Assembly (NCBI GenBank): GCA_004213885.1 | Contig: SGYL01000001.1 | Location: 1-64,000, forward strand | Direction: 5' to 3' | Origin: Alphaproteobacteria bacterium | GTDB taxonomy: Bacteria > Pseudomonadota > Alphaproteobacteria > Puniceispirillales > Marisalimonadaceae | Length of the DNA: 64,000 nt | In this document: positions 1,728 to 27,174 of the stretch, piece after piece | Numbering within the stretch: the first letter of the stretch is position 1 | Layout: every line of letters begins with the position of its first letter | Translations under genes and position numbers: made by a program | The notes under the pieces: model-generated | The model's input: the letters and a program-made list of their open reading frames with translations, nothing else | Told to the model about the DNA's origin: nothing | Database searches by the model: none

Positions 1728-2864
1728 TTAATTAGTATCATTTTTTGTAATTGAGAATTTTTTCATTTTCTCAATTAGGGTAGTTCTTCTTAGCTTTAAA
1801 ATGTCTGCTGCGTTGGCAATTTTTCCATTAGTCTTTTCTAAAGCTGCTTCAATTAATATTATCTCAATATCTTGTAAATGACGTCGAATATCAATTTCGT
1901 CATAGAAAGTAAACCAATCTTTATAATTATTTGGATGAGGAAGATTATTAACATTAGTTTCTTCATCACCGTTGTCATCAAATTCAACTTCATCCATTAA
2001 CTCTGATGTTACATCCCAAATCTCATTTTGTTCTTCAATTGTGTTTGGAGCTTTCAACCTTAAGAGGTTTTCAGTAACATTTGTACTTGTAACATCTTGA
2101 CCCTGAAAAAGTATACATGCTCTTTCAATTAAATTTTTTAATTCTCTTACGTTACCAGGCCAATTATGTCTTGTAAGTGCTGTGATTGCTTCAGTTGTAA
2201 ATTTTGGCTTAAATTCATCTTCGGTATCTACTTTTTTTAGCAAATTTAATACTAAGTCAGGTATATCATCTCTTCTTTCAGCTAGTGATGGTACCTGTAT
2301 AGGTAAAACATTTATTCTAAAGAAAAGATCAGCTCTAAATTCCCCACTTTCAACTTTTTTTTCTAAATCTCTATGAGTTGCACATATAAGTCTAAGATCA
2401 ATTTTAATATCTGTAGATCCTCCAACTCTTTGAATTGTTTTATTTTCAATTGCTCTTAATAATTTTGCTTGGAGCGCCAAGGGCATATCACCTATCTCGT
2501 CGAGGAACATTGAACCACCGCTTGATTGTTCAAATTTACCTTTTCTTAGTTTATCAGCTCCAGTAAATGATCCTTTTTCATGTCCAAATAGTTCTGATTC
2601 CAATAACTCTGAAGGAATGGCTGCGCAATTGACTGTTATTAAAGGTCCATTTCTTGGCGAAGAGTTGTGAATTGCTCTTGCAATCACGTCTTTACCAGTT
2701 CCAGTTTCTCCAAGTATTAAAGCGGTACTGTTCGTTTTGGATATCATTTGAATTAATTTTATTAATTCATCAGTTTGTTTGCTTTTACCAGAAATTAAAT
2801 TTCTGATGTTAAAGTTGTTACTCTTTTGGGTTTTATGGTCTGATATTTTTGTGACAGATGCCAT
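1728..2864 (-). CDS. Sigma-54 activator, FleQ/FlrA-like, lacking the N-terminal sensory domain
   Basis: 378-residue AAA+ enhancer-binding protein. Walker A GETGTGKD lies at about residues 52-59. The sigma-54 contact loop reads GSFTGA (about 98-103) rather than the usual GAFTGA. A Walker B-type LDEIGDM and WPGNVREL follow. After an acidic linker there is a Fis-type helix-turn-helix (AANAADILKLRRTTLIEKM-like region, about 345-370), resembling the C-terminus of FleQ. Only about 25 residues precede the AAA+ domain, so there is no receiver or FleQ domain and activity is probably set by level or partners. Divergent from flbD and the flagellar cluster, so inferred to be a flagellar master activator. 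Confidence 0.85.
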   Translation of the reverse strand: MASVTKISDHKTQKSNNFNIRNLISGKSKQTDELIKLIQMISKTNSTALILGETGTGKDVIARAIHNSSPRNGPLITVNCAAIPSELLESELFGHEKGSFTGADKLRKGKFEQSSGGSMFLDEIGDMPLALQAKLLRAIENKTIQRVGGSTDIKIDLRLICATHRDLEKKVESGEFRADLFFRINVLPIQVPSLAERRDDIPDLVLNLLKKVDTEDEFKPKFTTEAITALTRHNWPGNVRELKNLIERACILFQGQDVTSTNVTENLLRLKAPNTIEEQNEIWDVTSELMDEVEFDDNGDEETNVNNLPHPNNYKDWFTFYDEIDIRRHLQDIEIILIEAALEKTNGKIANAADILKLRRTTLIEKMKKFSITKNDTN

Positions 2865-3041: not shown

Positions 3042-4226
3042 ATGAATCATGTAATAATTATAGGTAAAAATTTAAATATATTTGAAGATTTAAGTAATTT
3101 TTTTGAAAACAGAAATATATCAATAATTAAACCAAATGAAAATAATGATTTACCAAACCTTTCAGGAGTAGCCTTGAGTGGCTTAAATATTGAAACAATT
3201 ATTTGTTCTACAGAATATGAAAAACATTTAGGTGGCCAAGAAAAATTACTAGCTTTTGCAAGAGAAAACAAAATAAAAAAAATTATTATTATTTCAGAAG
3301 ATAAAAATATAAAAGATTACACTATTATAAATGAATTAGGTGGAGCACTAAAGAGATTAACGTTTAATGATATTTATAATAAAATAACAAAAGAGATAAT
3401 TTTTCATTGTTGTGTAACAGATAATTCTTATTCAGCAGGTGATGAAAAGACCTTTGAACTGCTTAGTTTATCTAGAAGAGTAGCATTAACTGATGTCACT
3501 GTATTTATTAATGGCCCAACTGGTTCTGGCAAAGAAGTTCTAGCAAATTATTTACATGAATATTCACCAAGAAAAAATGAACCCTTTGTTGCGGTTAATT
3601 GTGCTGCAATTCCAGAAAACATGTTAGAGGCAATTCTTTTTGGCCATGAAAAGGGTGCTTTTACAGGAGCCTCGTATGCAAATAAGGGGATTTTCAGGGC
3701 TGCTGAAAAAGGTACTTTGTTATTAGATGAAATTTCTGAGATGCCTTTATCTTTGCAAGCAAAATTATTACGTGTTTTACAAGAAAAAAAGGTAACTCCT
3801 GTTGGAGGCCAAAGGGATATTGAAATTGATGTAAGAGTTTTAGCTACTTCTAATAGAGATATGGTAACTGAGGTAAAGCAATCTAGATTTAGAGAAGATT
3901 TATATTACAGATTAAATGTGTTTCCTCTTCAAACAAAAAATTTAAAAGATAGAAAGGATGATATTTTCCCTATAGCTTTAAAAATTTTAGAGAAACATTG
4001 TAAAGAAAAGCAAATACCAATAATTTCTTCCGAAGCACAAGAAGTTATTCTTAATCACGATTGGCCAGGTAATGTAAGAGAATTAGAAAACACATTACAG
4101 AGAGCACTTGTATTATGCGAAGGCGATAAGATAACAAAAACTTCAATTATGATTGACAAATCTCTTAACAATATGTCCTCAGATGGTCAGGTTGAGAGTT
4201 TTATTGATAGATATAATTATGCATAA
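3042..4226 (+). CDS. flbD: FlbD-like sigma-54 activator with degenerate receiver and no HTH
   Basis: 394-residue flagellar enhancer-binding protein. Residues 1-110 look like a receiver fold, but the usual Asp pair, phospho-acceptor Asp and Lys are not recognisable. An AAA+ domain follows: Walker A GPTGSGKE (about 158-165), intact GAFTGA (about 205-210), LLLDEISEM, and WPGNVREL. The protein stops about 35 residues after that with no Fis-type helix-turn-helix, unlike Caulobacter FlbD; the missing DNA-binding domain recalls H. pylori FlgR. First gene of the flagellar run, preceded by its own sigma-54 promoter and 25 bp before fliE. Start supported by AGGAG upstream. Confidence 0.9.
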   Translation: MNHVIIIGKNLNIFEDLSNFFENRNISIIKPNENNDLPNLSGVALSGLNIETIICSTEYEKHLGGQEKLLAFARENKIKKIIIISEDKNIKDYTIINELGGALKRLTFNDIYNKITKEIIFHCCVTDNSYSAGDEKTFELLSLSRRVALTDVTVFINGPTGSGKEVLANYLHEYSPRKNEPFVAVNCAAIPENMLEAILFGHEKGAFTGASYANKGIFRAAEKGTLLLDEISEMPLSLQAKLLRVLQEKKVTPVGGQRDIEIDVRVLATSNRDMVTEVKQSRFREDLYYRLNVFPLQTKNLKDRKDDIFPIALKILEKHCKEKQIPIISSEAQEVILNHDWPGNVRELENTLQRALVLCEGDKITKTSIMIDKSLNNMSSDGQVESFIDRYNYA

Positions 4227-18857: not shown

Positions 18858-19568
18858 TTAGTTATTTTGATTTTCTACTTCTTTAACTATTTCTTTTTGT
18901 TTTAAGTTTTCGTTTAATTTCAAGTATAAATTAACTTTTTTAATAAATATTTCATCATCTTTTTCAGTAGATTGAAAATAATTACCTAATATCTGCTTAC
19001 GTTTTAAAACACCAAGAAATTTTCCTTCACTTTCAACTTTTAAATGCGTATTATCAATTTTTTTTGTTGCTAAAGTAGCAATTTTAGCTTCAATAAATTC
19101 ATTTTGTACAGCTGCTCTAATTCTTAAGCCTGTATTAGTTTTAATTTTGGTTAATCTCATTACTAAACTATTTGTTCTTCTAATTAAGTCATCGCCTATT
19201 TCTTCCAATTGCATTCTAGAAGGAGGTGGTACTTTTACTGAAAGAAATTGTGAATTTTCTTCTTTTAATTTAGCAGGAAAGCCCGCTTCTTTTATTGTGG
19301 TTATTACTGTTTCTAAATTATCTCTACTATAAACCATCACTTCTAAATTAAGAGGATCATTAGGAGCTTCTATATTTGCGATATCAGCTAGCCTTCTTTT
19401 TCTTCCATCTATCATCACATATATACTATTAAACACTGCAATATTGGCATCTTCAGACTTTATTTCAGTAATTAAATCAGCGAAATCCTCGATAGCTTTA
19501 GAAAAGTTAGATATTGCTTCTGTAGAATAACTTTCTAAATTTTCAGGAGTTAAACTTTGTTCTGCCAT
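18858..19568 (-). CDS. Degenerate ribosome recycling factor-like protein in stator operon
   Basis: 236 residues. Residues about 20-190 follow the RRF plan: helix, beta domain (IYVMIDGRKRRLADIANIE, then LNLEVMVYSRDN), KVPPPSRMQLEEIGDDLIRR (about 112-131; RRF has VPLPPLTEERRKDL at this point), and a long helix. The arginine-rich RNVRRDA site that RRF uses on the ribosome reads RLTKIKT here. An extra tail of about 45 residues follows. It lies 15 bp after motB, so it is probably co-expressed with the motor. Normal frr is expected elsewhere. Fold call by eye; the function is inferred to be non-ribosomal. Confidence 0.65.
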   Translation of the reverse strand: MAEQSLTPENLESYSTEAISNFSKAIEDFADLITEIKSEDANIAVFNSIYVMIDGRKRRLADIANIEAPNDPLNLEVMVYSRDNLETVITTIKEAGFPAKLKEENSQFLSVKVPPPSRMQLEEIGDDLIRRTNSLVMRLTKIKTNTGLRIRAAVQNEFIEAKIATLATKKIDNTHLKVESEGKFLGVLKRKQILGNYFQSTEKDDEIFIKKVNLYLKLNENLKQKEIVKEVENQNN

Positions 19569-19583
19569 ATAATAATATTGAAA

Positions 19584-20762
19584 TTAATATTTAATTTCTA
19601 TTTCAATCCTTCTATTTTTTGATCTACCCGCTGCATCATTATTTGAAGCCAATGGTTTTGACTCACCATAGCTTATTGCCATGAGGCGATCTAAAGGTAT
19701 ATCTCCAGATTTTGATATCGATTGGACTACACTTGATGCTCTTGCAGCAGCTAAATCCCAATTATCTCTATATTGTCCACCAAATATTAAAGGGACATTG
19801 TCAGTATGACCTGATACGTTAATTTGTCCTGATCCTTTTTCACTAACTTTAGCAATTTTTCCCATTATTTTTTTTGCATTTTCTGTTAGTTCTGCAGATC
19901 CAGATCTAAATGCTCCAGCTGAACCAACGGTGATAATAACTCTGTCTTTTTCTCTTTTTACATCAGTTAAACCCTGTCCAATTTCTTGTTTTAAAGCTAC
20001 TTTGAATTCATCTTCGGCACTTTTTGCTTTAATTTTAGTTTCTTCAGTTTTTCTTTTTTCTTCTTTTTCTTCTTTATTAATTTTTTCTATTTTATCTATT
20101 AATGCTTTGTTATTTTCACTAGCCATTGCTATAGCTTTGATCTCATTGTTTATCCCGCCAATTAATACATCTGTGTCATAATTTCCAGATTTATTCCTAG
20201 CATCTTCTATCGCTGTAATAGTTTTTGAGACAACATCTTTTATATCTTTACTCTTTTCATTATTTATTTTGACAACTACTTTATCGTTAATGACTTCTGT
20301 AGAAACACTTTTATCTAAATCAATTGATTTAAGAGCCTCTTCTAGCTTTTTTGCTTTTTCAATACTTTCTGAACTGGATTTTGAACTCTCTCTTTTATCC
20401 TCTTCAGACTTAAGGTCTAAATTTTTTTGTTCTGTATTTGTAGATTGTTGTGTCATATTTTTTGTTACTGAAGGATCAGGAGAGGGGCTAAAATTTAAAG
20501 CCAATACTGTTGTTCCTCTAGGTTGCTCTACGACGGGGACCACCCTTTGAATACCAAAAGCGTTTTTTAAGCTACCACTAATTTGTTTAAATTTTGGTAC
20601 ATTAAATTCAGCAAATGAAAGAATAAGAACAAAAAATGCCATCAATAATGTTGCCATATCAGCAAAAGTAGCCATCCATGCAGGAGCACCTGGTGGAGGG
20701 CATTTAGGACATTCTTCTTCTTCTTGCTCTTCTACATTAGGGTTTTCTTGTGCTTCAGCCAT
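19584..20762 (-). CDS. motB: Stator protein MotB/PomB
   Basis: 392 residues. Cytoplasmic start with the PomB-like CPKCPPPGAPAWM; the single membrane helix carries the ion-binding Asp at residue 35 (ATFADMATLLMAFFVLILSF). A plug/linker of about 170 charged, coiled residues is followed by an OmpA-like peptidoglycan-binding domain (about 265-392: INVSGHTDNVP, DLAAARASSVV, SKNRRIEIEI). The CPPPG motif suggests Na+ coupling. 12 bp after motA. Confidence 0.95.
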   Translation of the reverse strand: MAEAQENPNVEEQEEEECPKCPPPGAPAWMATFADMATLLMAFFVLILSFAEFNVPKFKQISGSLKNAFGIQRVVPVVEQPRGTTVLALNFSPSPDPSVTKNMTQQSTNTEQKNLDLKSEEDKRESSKSSSESIEKAKKLEEALKSIDLDKSVSTEVINDKVVVKINNEKSKDIKDVVSKTITAIEDARNKSGNYDTDVLIGGINNEIKAIAMASENNKALIDKIEKINKEEKEEKRKTEETKIKAKSAEDEFKVALKQEIGQGLTDVKREKDRVIITVGSAGAFRSGSAELTENAKKIMGKIAKVSEKGSGQINVSGHTDNVPLIFGGQYRDNWDLAAARASSVVQSISKSGDIPLDRLMAISYGESKPLASNNDAAGRSKNRRIEIEIKY

Positions 20763-20774
20763 GTAAATACCTTT

Positions 20775-21539
20775 TTAAGCAGCTTCCTCTATTTTAGCTT
20801 GTAGTTTAGGGGGTAAATTAGCTATGAGTTGATCAGTAATGTTTCTAGGACTTTCACCTCTTGAAATATATTTTAATCCCATAACAACCATTTCTCTATA
20901 TAATGCTTCATGTGCAGAGTAATTCTCTAATTTTGTGACGATAGGCATAAAAATACAATTAGCAATCATCGCACCATAAAGTGTTGTTAAAAGTGCAACA
21001 GCCATTGCAGGTCCAATTGCTTTAGGATCAGCCATGTTTCCTAACATTGCAACTAAACCAATTAGAGTTCCAATCATACCCATTGCTGGAGCCAAGTCTA
21101 CCCATGCTTGGAAAACACTTTTCATATTATCATGGCGTCTAATCATACCTTTAACTTCTCTATTTAATTGTTCTGTTAATTTTGTTTCATCAGCTCCATC
21201 AACTAGCATTTGAAGTCCTTTTTCAAAAAATTTATCTGGCACCTCTTGGCCTTCTAGAGCCATCATTCCGTCTTTTCTTGCTATTCCTGCTAATTCTGTA
21301 ATCCTTGTTATCAATTCATCATGTTTTTTTGCACCTGGTAGAAAGACTTTTGCCAAAGTTCCAAATGATGCCAGGAAATCTGGTAATGTAGATCTATACA
21401 TAACCGCAAAAAATGTTCCACCGATTACAATTAACATTGAAGGGGTATCTATAAATGGACCAATTCCTCCTGATGAAACCATTGCACCAGCTATCATTCC
21501 TAGTGTTCCAACTAAACCAATTAAAGATGCTATATCCAT
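20775..21539 (-). CDS. motA: Stator protein MotA/PomA
   Basis: 254 residues, four membrane helices. Begins MDIASLIGLVGTLGMIAGAM, as PomA does, and includes the cytoplasmic torque loop and GMIGTLIGLVAMLGNM / GAMIANCIFMPI helices 3 and 4. Forms the stator with the downstream motB; together Na+-type by sequence. Transcribed from a sigma-54 promoter at 21588-21604. Confidence 0.96.
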   Translation of the reverse strand: MDIASLIGLVGTLGMIAGAMVSSGGIGPFIDTPSMLIVIGGTFFAVMYRSTLPDFLASFGTLAKVFLPGAKKHDELITRITELAGIARKDGMMALEGQEVPDKFFEKGLQMLVDGADETKLTEQLNREVKGMIRRHDNMKSVFQAWVDLAPAMGMIGTLIGLVAMLGNMADPKAIGPAMAVALLTTLYGAMIANCIFMPIVTKLENYSAHEALYREMVVMGLKYISRGESPRNITDQLIANLPPKLQAKIEEAA

Positions 21540-21574: not shown

Positions 21575-21592
21575 TAGGCATAAATTCTGCAA
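21575..21592 (+). promoter_or_regulatory. Sigma-54-like promoter toward the DUF1566 gene
   Basis: TAGGCA...CTGCAA with GG (21577-21578) and GC (21589-21590) exactly 10 bases apart; the base before GG is A rather than the usual T. Its GC is the same GC used by the minus-strand motA promoter, so the two overlap head to head. About 50 bp to the downstream ATG. Confidence 0.55.
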
Positions 21593-21604
21593 GAATAAGA
21601 CCAA
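21588..21604 (-). promoter_or_regulatory. Sigma-54 (-24/-12) promoter of motA-motB-RRF-like
   Basis: On the minus strand TTGGTC...TTGCA, with GG (21602-21601) and GC (21590-21589) exactly 10 bases apart, about 50 bp before motA. Shares its -12 GC with an opposed promoter at 21575-21592. Confidence 0.75.
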
Positions 21605-21640: not shown

Positions 21641-22135
21641 ATGTGTAGAATGCTTTCTAGTAAATTTATAAAACTTATTATAGGAATATTTTTTTTATTT
21701 TTAACCCCTAAACTTGTTATAGCATCTGAATATATACCAAGAGGGTACTTTGTTATTGATTTGAAAAATAAAATCGAATGGATGACGTGTCCGGTAGGCA
21801 TGGTTTGGAATAAAAACACTTGTAATGGAATAGCTAAAAAATATGAACTGAAATTTTTGCCAGATATTATTAATATAGCTAACAAACAATTGGAAGGTAG
21901 TTGGAGATTACCTACAAGAAAAGAATTAGAAAGTTTAATATGCGTTAAATGTGAAAAAGTTAAAATTAATTTAAAAATATTTCCAAAAACACCTCCAGAA
22001 CCTTTTTGGACAAAAGATAAAAACTACTGGCAACCAAAATTTAATTGGATAGTTAATTTCTTAAACGGAAATACATTTGGTCGTTATCCAGGATACAAAC
22101 CTAATTACATACGGTTGGTGAGAGATAGAAATTAA
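21641..22135 (+). CDS. Secreted DUF1566 (Lcl C-terminal-like) protein
   Basis: 164 residues with a signal peptide (about 1-28, ending KLVIA). The mature part has the DUF1566 hallmarks: WRLPTRKELESLI in the middle and an end of the form NWIVNFLNGNTFGRYP...YIRLVRDR. Four mature cysteines in pairs (TCPVGMVWNKNTC and ICVKC) suggest disulfides. These C-type-lectin-like domains occur in surface adhesin or assembly proteins. A second ATG at 21650 could be the start. Divergent from motA, with overlapping sigma-54 promoters. Confidence 0.75.
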   Translation: MCRMLSSKFIKLIIGIFFLFLTPKLVIASEYIPRGYFVIDLKNKIEWMTCPVGMVWNKNTCNGIAKKYELKFLPDIINIANKQLEGSWRLPTRKELESLICVKCEKVKINLKIFPKTPPEPFWTKDKNYWQPKFNWIVNFLNGNTFGRYPGYKPNYIRLVRDRN

Positions 22136-22344
22136 TTTTTTTTATCTTTGAAATACTCAAAAATTTTGTAAATCGTTATTAAAATACCTGAAACTAAAAT
22201 AACATAAGCTGCATTTTCTGGAGTTATGAATTTAAGATAATGTAATTTGTCTTTTTGAATTAAAGCTAACAATATAAGCAAAAAAACTGATAATAAGAAT
22301 ATTCTTATTATTTTACATATTTTGCATGATGTCGAAAAAAACAT
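22132..22344 (-). CDS. Small two-helix membrane protein
   Basis: 70 residues, unrecognised. A CKIC pair near the N-terminus, then two hydrophobic helices (about 12-29 and 42-60) and a lysine-rich end. Its stop overlaps the convergent DUF1566 gene by 4 bp. Composition is plausible for a real membrane protein, but nothing beyond that supports it. Confidence 0.45.
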   Translation of the reverse strand: MFFSTSCKICKIIRIFLLSVFLLILLALIQKDKLHYLKFITPENAAYVILVSGILITIYKIFEYFKDKKN

Positions 22345-22545
22345 TAAAATTTGCTTGTCAACTTAATGACTCTTCTAAAATTAAATAAAGACCAATAATC
22401 AAACATTAATATCATATTATATTAAATTTAACAGCTGATATAGTTTTTAATTGTCAAATTTCTGTCTTTAAAAACATGTCAAATTAAAGTTTTGATTTTT
22501 TAAACAAATTTTTCTTTGATGAACAAAATACATAGGAGATTTGTA
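22345..22545. other. Spacer upstream of rpoN
   Basis: About 200 bp of AT-rich DNA. The only structure I see is the direct repeat GTCAAATT at about 22453 and 22489, possibly a regulator site, and a GGAG ribosome site just before the rpoN ATG. No convincing -35/-10 pair and no ORF. Confidence 0.3.
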
Positions 22546-24024
22546 ATGAAAATTAATCAACAGTTAAAAATAAAGCAAAATCAGTCTATTGTAATGACTC
22601 CACAATTACAACAAGCAATTAAGCTTTTACAACTTACAAATATTGAATTAGCCGAATATGTAGAAAATGCTAAATTAGAAAATCCATTTATAAAAGAAGA
22701 TCTTAATATTAAAAAGATAGAAATAAATGAACAAAAAACTTCTGACGTATTAGAAAATACTAAACAAAATGAGGATCCATTAAAGATTAATAGTGATTTA
22801 GAAATGAATAATTCTTTTGATACGCATATTTCAGAGAGATCTTTTGAAAAAGATAATACAACAATTAAAAATAATTTTGAAAACAAAAATACCTTTTTAT
22901 CTGAAGTAATTGAAAATACTGTATCAAATAAAATTTCTTTAAAAGAATATCTGACTAATCAAATAACGCTCTCCTTTGAAAAAAAAGATCAATCTGTTGC
23001 AATTTCTCTAATTGATTACTTGCATCCAAGTGGTTGGTTAATCCATCCAGTTGAGGATATTGCTGAGGAATTAAACAAACCTGTGAATTACATTGAAGAA
23101 ATAATACAACATTTACAATCCCTCGAGCCAATTGGGATATTTGCAAAAAATTTATCAGAATGTCTCAAGATACAACTCAAAGAAAAAGGTGTTTTAAATG
23201 AAACATATCAAGTTTTGATAGATAACTTAACGTTAATAACAAAGGGTAAAATTAAAACTCTTACAAAATTATGTAAAATAGAAAATGACAAAATTATTCA
23301 AATGATCAACATAATCAAAACATTAAATCCTAAGCCAGCAGAAAATTTTATTGATGAACCATTAAGTATCTCTGAGCCGGATATTATCGTATCAAAAACT
23401 AATAAAGGTTGGAAAATTGATTTAAATAGATCAACTCTTCCAACAATAGATTTAGATGAAGATTATATAAGTGAGATATCTAATTTAAATCTTGGGGGAG
23501 ATGATAATGAGTTTACAGCAAATAAAATTGGGGAAGCGAAATGGCTTCAAAAAGCTGTTGATCAAAGGAATAAAACTATATTAAAAGTTGCTTCAGTAAT
23601 TTTACAAAAACAAATTAGTTTTTTTAAGCATGGATTAAGTCACATGAAGCCTCTAATTTTAAAAGATGTTGCGGATGCTATAGGTATGCATGAAAGTACA
23701 GTTTCAAGGGTAACAAATAGTAAATTGATTTTAACTGATTGGGGATTATTATCTCTTAAAGAATTTTTTTCTGCAGCTATTCCAAGTTCTGAAGAAAGTG
23801 ATAAGCATGCAGCTTCAGCCGTAAGGGAAGCGTTAAAGAAGTTAATTTCTACAGAAGTTTCAAGCAAACCTCTCAGCGATGAAAAGATTGCAGATGTTTT
23901 ATCTAATCAGGGGATAGACGTAGCTAGGAGAACTGTAGCTAAATATAGAGACATGTTGAGTATTCCTTCAAGCGCAGAAAGAAAAAGACGATCGAAATTG
24001 AACAAATTATTATCTACTGGTTGA
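22546..24024 (+). CDS. rpoN: RNA polymerase sigma-54 factor
   Basis: 492 residues from the ATG at 22546, chosen because GGAG precedes it and the conserved Gln-rich region I begins there (MKINQQLKIKQNQSIVMTPQ); an upstream in-frame start at 22516 adds 10 unconserved residues. Region I, an acidic region II, the core-binding domain, the HTH (MHESTVSRVTNSK) and the RpoN box ARRTVAKYRDML (about 459-470) are all present. Supplies the sigma factor for the -24/-12 promoters in this window. Confidence 0.97.
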   Translation: MKINQQLKIKQNQSIVMTPQLQQAIKLLQLTNIELAEYVENAKLENPFIKEDLNIKKIEINEQKTSDVLENTKQNEDPLKINSDLEMNNSFDTHISERSFEKDNTTIKNNFENKNTFLSEVIENTVSNKISLKEYLTNQITLSFEKKDQSVAISLIDYLHPSGWLIHPVEDIAEELNKPVNYIEEIIQHLQSLEPIGIFAKNLSECLKIQLKEKGVLNETYQVLIDNLTLITKGKIKTLTKLCKIENDKIIQMINIIKTLNPKPAENFIDEPLSISEPDIIVSKTNKGWKIDLNRSTLPTIDLDEDYISEISNLNLGGDDNEFTANKIGEAKWLQKAVDQRNKTILKVASVILQKQISFFKHGLSHMKPLILKDVADAIGMHESTVSRVTNSKLILTDWGLLSLKEFFSAAIPSSEESDKHAASAVREALKKLISTEVSSKPLSDEKIADVLSNQGIDVARRTVAKYRDMLSIPSSAERKRRSKLNKLLSTG

Positions 24025-24162
24025 AACTAAATTAGCTAAAACTTTTAATGGGATAATTTTCTTTTGATAAACTTTGTTATTTTTATTAAATATTTTTAAG
24101 TTAATTTTGAGATCGGCAAGATCATTATTTTTTAAATCATCATTTCTTTTATGCAACTTCAT
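24010..24162 (-). CDS. Possible 50-residue protein after the M23 peptidase gene
   Basis: An ORF of 50 codons running from ATG 24162 to TAA 24010. GGGG lies 7 bases before the ATG. The product is basic (K/N-rich first half, IIPLKVLANLV near the end), no known family. It starts 44 bp downstream of the M23 stop on the same strand and overlaps the 3' end of rpoN by 15 bp. Could be a real small gene or chance. Confidence 0.35.
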   Translation of the reverse strand: MKLHKRNDDLKNNDLADLKINLKIFNKNNKVYQKKIIPLKVLANLVSTSR

Positions 24163-24206: not shown

Positions 24207-25556
24207 TTAATTTGTATCTGCAATTGATTTTAGACTATTTCTACTTAATAATTTCCTGCCAATTGAAAAGTAAATAGCAGGATCTTTTGACTTCCCATTA
24301 ACGGATATTTCATAATGTAAATGAGCACCATCTACTCTGCCAGTTCTTCCCATTTTACCAATAACTTGACCTTCAGAAACAATTTGACCTTTCTTGACTA
24401 GTATTTTAGCAAGGTGTCCATAAGTAGTTTTAATTCCGTAGTTATGTCGAATTCTAATAACTTTGCCAAATGAGCCATGGTACCCAGCAAAAGTTACAAC
24501 CCCATCCGCTGATACCTTTATATTTTCCTGCCATGTACCAGCTAAATCAATACCATGATGGAAACGCCATTTTTTTGTCACTGGATGTTTTCTTTTTCCA
24601 TACTTACTAGTTACATAATAATGTTCCATAGGTGGTTTTAAAGGTATAAATTCTAATGCATTTTTATAAATAGCTAGTAAATCTAATCGTTCTCTGAAAG
24701 CTATTAAAAATTTTTCAGCGTCTTCTTGATAATCTAGTTCTTTATTGATTAAGTTTCTAACTTTTTGAACTCTATTGTCTTTTAATTCTAAATCAAGTTT
24801 ATCAAATACTTGTTCTAAATTAGATAATTCATTATCTAAAGATGAAATGAATCTGAAGTTGGATGCTCTTTCATCAAGTTTGGGAGGCGATATATAAAAA
24901 GCATTATCATTGTCTACATCTTTTAAATTCATGTTATTATTTGGTTCATTTTTCTTAAATACTTTGGTATCAGAGTTATTTAAATTTGGAAAAATTTTTG
25001 AATTAGAGGCAAGTTTTGTATTTTGTTCCTCGATTATATTTGATTTATCTAATTTATCTGTATAAATTTTTTCTTTAATTAAATATTCTGAGTTTTTAAC
25101 TAATTTGGTATTAAAATTAATTTCATTTGTTTGTTCAGGTAAGCTAATATTGGTTTCAAGACCAATTTTATTATCATTAGATTTTGTCTCATCTATATTT
25201 ATTTCATTTAAAACAGACTTTGATTCTACTTCGTTTGATTTATCCTCTTTAATATTTGTTGGCAAGTTAGCTGATGCTTCGGTAATGATATCTTTTTGTG
25301 CAACGTCAATAGCCGATGAGATGCCAACAACCGAATAGTAAACAATGCTTGATACTCCAACCACAATAGTTAAAGCTAGAGAAACGTAGTGAGAAAGTTT
25401 AAAGTGTATTTCTATAGGGCCACGTCTAGTAAAGATCAAAAATCTTCGTTCTGATAATAGTCCAACCTTTGGCTTTGTGAAAAGATCTCCAAATCTAATA
25501 CCCTTTTTAACAGATGGAAATTTTTTAGACAGTTTTTTTATTGTTGAATTATTCAG
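24207..25556 (-). CDS. M23 (LytM-like) membrane-anchored peptidase
   Basis: Murein endopeptidase-type protein: cytoplasmic lead, a membrane helix (SHYVSLALTIVVGVSSIVYYS), a long charged coiled region, then the peptidase domain with the zinc ligands HHGIDLA and HLHYE. No ATG or GTG begins the frame. TTG 25439 is the first usual start, but the sequence before it (LLSERRF...) matches the juxtamembrane lead of alphaproteobacterial M23 proteins, so the real start lies upstream. I placed it at CTG 25556, preceded by GGAG and just after the upstream stop; ATT 25499 is another option. Divergent from three bactofilins. Confidence 0.85.
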   Translation of the reverse strand: MNNSTIKKLSKKFPSVKKGIRFGDLFTKPKVGLLSERRFLIFTRRGPIEIHFKLSHYVSLALTIVVGVSSIVYYSVVGISSAIDVAQKDIITEASANLPTNIKEDKSNEVESKSVLNEINIDETKSNDNKIGLETNISLPEQTNEINFNTKLVKNSEYLIKEKIYTDKLDKSNIIEEQNTKLASNSKIFPNLNNSDTKVFKKNEPNNNMNLKDVDNDNAFYISPPKLDERASNFRFISSLDNELSNLEQVFDKLDLELKDNRVQKVRNLINKELDYQEDAEKFLIAFRERLDLLAIYKNALEFIPLKPPMEHYYVTSKYGKRKHPVTKKWRFHHGIDLAGTWQENIKVSADGVVTFAGYHGSFGKVIRIRHNYGIKTTYGHLAKILVKKGQIVSEGQVIGKMGRTGRVDGAHLHYEISVNGKSKDPAIYFSIGRKLLSRNSLKSIADTN

Positions 25557-25559
25557 TTT

Positions 25560-25922
25560 TTACTCCAATACATTCAATAGTAGCATAAATATACCTATAT
25601 TTGAAAACACCTGTAATAGCATTAGAAATACTAAAACTTTAGAAGAAATTGGGTTTTTAACTGATAATTGAACCGAAGGAAATTCTTTACTATTTTGAGT
25701 TAAAGTTTTTGATTTTGATAAGTCATTGTTATAACTAGATTTAATTTCTTCTTTTTGTTGATTGTTGAATTCATTTTCTAATTTAGTAATTCTTTTTTTT
25801 TCTTCATAATTAACATTTTTTTCAAGATTGGGTTCATCATGAATATCACTTTTATTATCATCTTCAAATTTGATTCGCATCTTTTCTATTCTTTCGCGAA
25901 TATCAATTACTTGTTCTGCCAT
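25560..25922 (-). CDS. Coiled-coil protein with C-terminal membrane anchor
   Basis: 120 residues, no known family. An N-terminal amphipathic helix (DIRERIEKMRIKFEDD), a charged coil, and one C-terminal hydrophobic helix (about 93-117) as a tail anchor. AGGA ribosome site before the ATG. It is in the same reading frame as the M23 gene and separated from its open frame only by one TAA. Probably works with the peptidase; transcribed from a sigma-54-like promoter opposed to that of the bactofilins. Confidence 0.7.
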   Translation of the reverse strand: MAEQVIDIRERIEKMRIKFEDDNKSDIHDEPNLEKNVNYEEKKRITKLENEFNNQQKEEIKSSYNNDLSKSKTLTQNSKEFPSVQLSVKNPISSKVLVFLMLLQVFSNIGIFMLLLNVLE

Positions 25923-25949: not shown

Positions 25950-25967
25950 TTGGCTTGTTTATTGCAC
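25950..25967 (+). promoter_or_regulatory. Sigma-54 (-24/-12) promoter of the bactofilin operon
   Basis: TTGGCT...TTGCAC with GG (25952-25953) and GC (25964-25965) exactly 10 bases apart, about 105 bp before the first bactofilin. The leader between is very AT-rich. Confidence 0.75.
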
Positions 25968-25979
25968 TATTTATACCAA
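25962..25979 (-). promoter_or_regulatory. Sigma-54-like promoter toward the membrane protein and M23 gene
   Basis: On the minus strand TTGGTA...GTGCAA with GG (25977-25976) and GC (25965-25964) exactly 10 bases apart, about 40 bp before the ATG at 25922. Shares its -12 GC with the opposed bactofilin promoter. Confidence 0.6.
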
Positions 25980-26071: not shown

Positions 26072-26407
26072 ATGGCAAATAAAACTGACGGCGAAGTAGA
26101 AAAATCAATTATATCTTCAGATATGAAGATAAAGGGTAAAATTACGGCTTCTGGAGGGCTTGTCTTGCTTGGAAATGTTGTGGGAGATATTAAATGCAAT
26201 AGTCTATCTATAGAAGAAACTGGAGTTCTTAAAGGAAATATTGATGCAGAGTTAGTTTCGATAGCTGGTAAATTTGATGGCCAAGTTTTATCTGAAGTGG
26301 TTTCAATTCGTTCAACAGGTTCTGTAACTGGTGAAGTCTCATACGATAATATTTCTATCGATGAAGGTGCCAAAGTTGAAGCGCAATTAGGAAAAAAGAA
26401 ACAATAA
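26072..26407 (+). CDS. Bactofilin 1
   Basis: 111 residues. Bactofilin (DUF583) beta-helix: repeated short strands with G at turns (ISSDMKIKGKITASGGLVLLG, then VVGDIKCNSLSIEETGVLKG). Short disordered N-terminus, a basic C-terminal KKKQ. Bactofilins polymerise without nucleotide on the membrane and recruit cell-wall enzymes. First of three tandem paralogs. Confidence 0.93.
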   Translation: MANKTDGEVEKSIISSDMKIKGKITASGGLVLLGNVVGDIKCNSLSIEETGVLKGNIDAELVSIAGKFDGQVLSEVVSIRSTGSVTGEVSYDNISIDEGAKVEAQLGKKKQ

Positions 26408-26438
26408 ATAAAATAAATTTTAGTTAATAGGTGTAGTT

Positions 26439-26816
26439 ATGGCAGAAAAACAAGCAGTTTTAGGAAATGGAGCAAAATTTACAGGAAAAATTAATAATTC
26501 TAAGTCAATAGAAATTAATGGCTCTGTACAAGCAGATTTGGTTACTGAAAAAGTAACTATTGGATCTACAGGTAATTTTAAGGGTGCAGTTAAATCTGAT
26601 CTAGTTGTTATTGCTGGAGAATATGAAGGAAAAATGAAAGCTGACAGCATTTGGCTAACAGAAAGTTCTCGAATAAGTGGTGAAATACATTATAAATCTT
26701 TGCAAATGGATAGAGGTGCAGCTTTGAATTGTCGTGTGGTTCATAATTGGGATAAAAAAGAACAAGCTAAAAAGCAAGAACCAGCTGAAGAAACGCAAAA
26801 CGTTAAAGAAGAATAA
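26439..26816 (+). CDS. Bactofilin 2
   Basis: 125 residues. The same beta-helix core (FTGKINNSKSIEINGSVQADL, then YEGKMKADSIWL) with a longer charged C-terminal tail rich in K, E and Q. 31 bp after bactofilin 1. The paralogs are diverged from each other, so this is an old duplication and they probably have separate roles. Confidence 0.93.
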   Translation: MAEKQAVLGNGAKFTGKINNSKSIEINGSVQADLVTEKVTIGSTGNFKGAVKSDLVVIAGEYEGKMKADSIWLTESSRISGEIHYKSLQMDRGAALNCRVVHNWDKKEQAKKQEPAEETQNVKEE

Positions 26817-26859
26817 AATATTATTCTTAATGATTAAAAATTATTTTAATAGGTGAAAA

Positions 26860-27174
26860 ATGAGTGAAACAACATATATATCAGAAGAATTAATTATGGA
26901 AGGTACATTAGACTCCTCCGGCTCAGCAGTTGTTATTGCTGGAAGGTTTAAAGGGGAATTAAGAGCCAAAGATGTACTATTAGAATCAAATAGTGTTTTT
27001 GATGGTAATTTAATCGCAGATAAAGTTACTTTGGGAGGACTTGTTAAGGGAGAAGTTGCCGCAAATATTCTTAATGTTTCAAGTAGTGCTAGAGTTGAAG
27101 GAAACTTAAAAACAAATTCTTTATCAATTGATCTAGGTGCAGAGGTTGCAGGTAATATTAGTAGGATTTCTTAA
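26860..27174 (+). CDS. Bactofilin 3
   Basis: 104 residues, almost only beta-helix (EELIMEGTLDSSGSAVVIAGRF, then ARVEGNLKTNSLSIDLGAEVAG), with no long tails. Begins 43 bp after bactofilin 2 and ends 1 bp from a convergent gene. Confidence 0.92.
   Translation: MSETTYISEELIMEGTLDSSGSAVVIAGRFKGELRAKDVLLESNSVFDGNLIADKVTLGGLVKGEVAANILNVSSSARVEGNLKTNSLSIDLGAEVAGNISRIS

Follow-up and report, generated by a model that had tools for sequence, protein, structure and literature searches.

Mirrored sigma-54 sites in two divergent spacers

The spacer between the divergently transcribed genes motA and DUF1566 raises the question of whether one short block of DNA can act as a sigma-54 promoter for both of its neighbours. 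Within the window (the whole 64,000-nt stretch of DNA that was analysed) the plus strand reads GG at 21577-78, GC at 21589-90 and CC at 21601-02, confirming letter by letter the GG-N10-GC-N10-CC arrangement, with -24/-12 spacing in both directions, that the first-pass annotation had reported. This block (E1; 21577..21602; GGCATAAATTCTGCAAGAATAAGACC) has TGCA at its centre and, because TGCA is its own reverse complement, a single GC can stand as the -12 element of both strands. E1 lies between the start codons of motA (minus strand, 20775..21539, ATG at 21539), an open reading frame with a MotA_ExbB domain (PF01618) that encodes a stator protein and is followed by a motB-like open reading frame (19584-20762, minus strand), and of the Lcl_C (formerly DUF1566) gene (plus strand, 21641..22135, ATG at 21641; PF07603), whose product has a signal-peptide-like N-terminus. 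Two further reading frames lie beside these genes. One (18858-19568, minus strand) adjoins the motB-like gene and has a weak match to a ribosome-recycling-factor domain, and its protein resembles at its start that of an ORF near motB in another family (L240:11468-12067). The other (22132-22344, minus strand; 70 aa) sits on the opposite strand between DUF1566 and rpoN and resembles small ORFs in the same place in sister families.

The same geometry had been noted a second time in the window, and the sequence bears this out, with GG at 25952-53, GC at 25964-65 and CC at 25976-77 around another TGCA centre (E2; 25952..25977; GGCTTGTTTATTGCACTATTTATACC). E2 is likewise situated between divergent start codons, those of a gene for a 120-aa protein with no Pfam match (minus strand, 25560..25922, ATG at 25922), which leads an operon with a Peptidase_M23 gene (minus strand, 24207..25439; PF01551), and of a bactofilin gene (plus strand, 26072..26407, ATG at 26072; PF04519). 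This is the first among three bactofilin-like genes (26072-27174), further matches to the bactofilin protein being present at 26451-26732 and 26866-27159.

The four half-sites were ranked by a sigma-54 matrix whose training set consisted of other sites, namely the one-way flgB and one-way motA promoters of relatives and three single sites of the window. Among the 127,966 18-mers of the window, to which the ranking is confined, the half-site directed at motA (21587..21604, minus strand, TTGGTCTTATTCTTGCAG) ranked 3, that directed at the M23 operon (25962..25979, minus strand, TTGGTATAAATAGTGCAA) 10, that directed at bactofilin (25950..25967, plus strand, TTGGCTTGTTTATTGCAC) 12 and that directed at DUF1566 (21575..21592, plus strand, TAGGCATAAATTCTGCAA) 15. 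In all four, 10 bases separate the -24 GG from the -12 GC (consensus TTGGY...TGCW), and the weakest of them, directed at DUF1566, has TAGG instead of TTGG. Matches resembling sigma-70 promoters occurred near E1 and E2 at about the same frequency as in shuffled sequence.

The proteins that a sigma-54-dependent promoter requires are also encoded here. The gene for sigma-54 itself, rpoN (plus strand, 22516..24024), is located between E1 and E2, and its product carries the full set of three Pfam domains, together with a canonical RpoN box (ARRTVAKYR). Pfam analysis further identified two AAA+ sigma-54 activators, one with a Fis-type HTH (1728..2864, minus strand) and one with no recognised HTH (3042..4226, plus strand). 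The interval that separates the M23 gene from the 3' end of rpoN contains in addition a solitary sigma-54-like site (TTGGCATATAAAATGCAA; GG at 24203-24202, minus strand; rank 5 in the window), with an unannotated 50-aa ORF just downstream (24010-24162, minus strand). Such a site and an ORF of 50-64 aa recur in this position in five relatives (L085, L086, L089, L090 and L091), and in a more distant family the position is taken by a 206-aa ORF (L240:4618-5238).

Conservation of the geometry and its gain and loss

E1 is present upstream of motA in all 30 family genomes examined, which span four genera, and E2 in the bactofilin spacer of 28/28, with the six GG/GC/CC columns invariant in both sets. 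Identity to the consensus was 98% over the 30-bp element vs 73% in its flanks for E1, and 88% vs 59% for E2. The pattern used to collect these sequences included the motif, yet no locus of either set was missed, and all the spacers were read individually.

A test anchored on the motA-directed promoter alone gave a sharper result. Scanning named genomes with the DUF1566 family yielded 79 loci, from SAR116-cluster bacteria and other marine Alphaproteobacteria, and motA was divergent from DUF1566 in all of them. An opposite-strand GG exactly 12 nt from the motA GC was found in 45 of the 63 distinct spacers, vs 0-2 at each of the other offsets (4 to 40). The same spike at the exact offset was seen at E2 (28/28) and at a third locus, E3 (10/10 distinct spacers). 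The letters of the spacer vary among three clades while the geometry is constant (TAGGCAYAAATTC, TTGGTATAGATTC and TTGGTACTAAAGT). On a MotA tree the mirrored state falls in three separate clades and needs five changes, at least four of which are forced by well-supported branches. Near misses were also read, with TTTTGC for TTTTGG at L212, and with L221 lacking a GG that is present in its sister L219.

The sigma-54 site directed at motA is found across the order. In sister families this promoter is single (TTGGTAY...TTGCW) and lacks the mirrored arm. In several lineages without the overlap (L230, L233, L225, L229, L082 and L083) DUF1566 has a separate sigma-54-like site some distance off, which supports its being a sigma-54 gene independently of motA. 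A strict DUF1566-directed site was not found in the spacers read from the L196-L210 group.

E3 is a mirrored element at flgB, present in 12/12 genomes of three sister families (e.g. TTGGCATCCTATTTGCAAATTCTACACCAA). Where the neighbourhood was read, its other side faces a divergent gene of unknown function; this partner of flgB (L094:3969-4730 and equivalents), which had no Pfam match, recurs in several families. In the window's own family flgB has a one-way promoter, with a mirrored CC in 1/18. Because both flgB and motA supply such one-way controls, the mirrored arm is not a by-product of a sigma-54 promoter as such. Retention of a single orientation in relatives, which the first-pass annotation had regarded as counting against its reading, is therefore real in several sister lineages, but the window's family and two other clades keep both orientations, and the combination that it had named as support, a conserved element with drifting flanks in a divergent spacer, is present at E1, E2 and a third locus.

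Across the class (385 genomes), exact matches to TTGGY-N8-TGCA-N8-RCCAA numbered 41 vs 5 for the reversed pattern, an approximate control only, as its central word is different. Those matches that lie in divergent spacers and are not buried in a longer ORF belong to flagellar-region pairs (flgB, motA and bactofilin); most of the exact matches elsewhere are inside genes. A phylum-wide search for TTGGCA-N6-TTGCAA-N6-TGCCAA, in which one mismatch was allowed, returned no perfect match in 299 genomes. As a rough guide, given that so strict a pattern would miss E1 itself, these searches suggest that at this stringency the layout is rare outside SAR116-like bacteria and a few other marine lineages. 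An unrelated alphaproteobacterium carries TTGGCACGGTCCATGCATGTACAGGGCCAA between a gene resembling the FlhB C-terminus and flgB (L153; G276:C3:789024-789053), which is possibly an independent case, represented by one genome of its family.

A shared -12 element and the alternatives to it

Conservation at all three loci supports the earlier proposal of head-to-head sigma-54 promoters with one GC in common, and the most probable reading of the sequences, to which we assign a probability of roughly 0.82, is that E1 and E2, together with E3 at flgB in the sister families, act as bidirectional sigma-54 promoters, each with one palindromic -12 common to both directions. The -24 GG would lie 12 nt off the shared GC on each side, so that a closed complex of RpoN-RNA polymerase could face either way. 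Opening by an activator would follow, with melting proceeding outward from the shared GC, to give two divergent transcripts. At E1 the predicted start sites are ~21602 (plus strand) and ~21577 (minus strand), and the 5' ends of the transcripts would be complementary over an overlap of ~26 nt. Two complexes could not coexist, and one polymerase at a time would occupy the element. As both genes would belong to one flagellar regulon, depending on the same sigma factor and presumably on the same activator, the default outcome averaged over time would be co-expression, at a ratio set by the two half-sites. Counting against this reading are the weakness of the DUF1566-directed half of E1, the L196-L210 group with no strict site for DUF1566 in the spacers read, and the roughly one motif that chance predicts for the window. 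We infer transcription from both sides, mutual exclusion and ratio-setting from the arrangement of the elements.

The first-pass annotation had gone further, holding that the stator operon and its partner would be expressed either/or at any instant. For occupancy of the DNA this is sound; for expression it does not follow, as at sigma-70 bidirectional promoters competition appears only under strong activation (PMC12825309). A true switch is conceivable since a closed complex of sigma-54 persists without transcribing until the activator acts. A polymerase parked one way might then hold the other gene off, and an activator-gated choice of orientation might fix the ratio of stator to partner or make cells alternate between them. 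We regard such a switch as unlikely; if real, it would set these elements apart from what sigma-70 bidirectional promoters are expected to do.

Less probable again is one-sided firing, from the motA-directed promoter at E1 and from just one of the two sides at E2, with the other half-site a decoy at which a silent, wrong-way closed complex serves as a brake. Sigma-54 holoenzyme does bind without transcribing, and most E. coli sigma-54 sites are inactive under the conditions tested (PMC4591121); at E1, moreover, the half-site on the DUF1566 side is the weaker one. A pure brake, however, needs neither a second gene nor so exact an arrangement at three loci. The mirrored arm occurs close to the start of a divergent gene of the flagellar region, and the separate DUF1566 sites in lineages without overlap likewise speak against a decoy.

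It is more doubtful still that the conserved block is the operator of another regulator, containing one sigma-54 promoter and a mirrored GG that belongs to the operator. In the window's family the conservation of E1 does take in more than the six sigma-54 columns (98% across 30 bp) and the element contains an inverted repeat, ATTCT-GCA-AGAAT, but this repeat is absent in other clades (e.g. TTGGTATAGATTCTGCAACTTTAATACCAA) in which both -24 arms and their spacing are kept, and what E1, E2 and E3 have in common is sigma-54 letters and spacing rather than any single operator sequence.

Accidental symmetry of a promoter centred on TGCA, against an AT-rich background, is scarcely credible and is refuted for E1 and E2 by their conservation (30/30 and 28/28) and the exact-offset spike, not by rarity in a single genome, a count that lends the element weak support: with 258 TGCA in the window and a one-sided GG rate of 6%, base composition predicts ~1 double-sided motif where 2 were seen, and of the 13 copies of GG-N9-TGCA-N9-CC in the genome only E1 and E2 are clearly in divergent spacers, the 11 others being mostly inside long ORFs.

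Comparison with known divergent and bidirectional promoters

E1, E2 and E3 combine a symmetric core, elements for both orientations and conservation, which are among the features by which bidirectional promoters are recognised in general. In the sigma-70 kind, according to PMC10268837 (citing Warman et al. 2021 Nat Microbiol), the two directions have a common -10 and starts mostly 18 bp apart, with 10 and 23 also common. The two directions do not compete at the basal level of transcription, which is too weak for this, and one represses the other only when strongly activated (Warman et al. 2026, PMC12825309). Both kinds would have a pseudo-symmetrical core common to opposite strands, use by polymerase in either orientation but never both, and overlapping 5' ends. 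E1 and E2, however, would share the sigma-54 -12 and not a -10, the predicted starts are ~25 bp apart rather than ~18 bp, an ATP-driven activator would be needed and complexes would wait closed. By analogy, E1 and E2 would work like a sigma-70 bidirectional promoter without being members of that class.

Divergent sigma-54 pairs within one spacer, some under one activator, have been described for zraP//zraSR and hycA//hypA of E. coli and for the Azotobacter VnfA1 targets (PMC4987338, PMC9542535). The two E. coli pairs are separate and non-overlapping, their -24 GGs lying 142 bp (zra) and 116 bp (hyc/hyp) apart with no GG-N10-GC-N10-CC, whereas the half-sites of E1 and E2 overlap. Compact divergent flagellar spacers are also known among Alphaproteobacteria from Rhodobacter sphaeroides, in which flagellar promoters are controlled by CtrA and one activator site can serve both directions (PMC6180460), but these are not sigma-54 -24/-12 promoters and what they share is the activator site rather than a core element. 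Literature searches on sigma-54 promoters that overlap, face each other or are bidirectional returned only divergent pairs or unrelated cases, and a sigma-54 promoter with a shared -12 was not found in the literature searched, which covers subscription papers poorly, making an earlier description possible. The earlier remark that the layout was not familiar as a described class consequently stands, within that literature, for the sigma-54 form; for the principle it does not, as the sigma-70 promoters outlined in PMC10268837 share their -10 likewise.

Bacterial gene control has only recently come to include bidirectional promoters, which the literature searched describes for initiation of the sigma-70 type. 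If flagellar loci of streamlined marine bacteria gain and lose a conserved sigma-54 form, the principle would extend to a mechanistically unrelated sigma factor. Since sigma-54 complexes wait in the closed state, an element of the E1 type would also offer a clean test of competition between polymerase orientations. Promoter annotation that records only the higher-scoring strand would overlook one half of an element of this kind.

Two smaller observations concern activation. The activator genes at 1728-2864 (minus strand) and 3042-4226 (plus strand) are a divergent pair, apparently complementary in their domains, and recall FleQ/FleT of R. sphaeroides. For that species, PMC6180460 describes a joint role of FleQ and FleT in fla1 expression. 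In several relatives (L058, L061 and L063), repeated words containing GTAGTA (e.g. TTGTAGTACGTT) were seen by eye in the bactofilin-side spacer, ~50-100 nt past E2, and might be activator sites.
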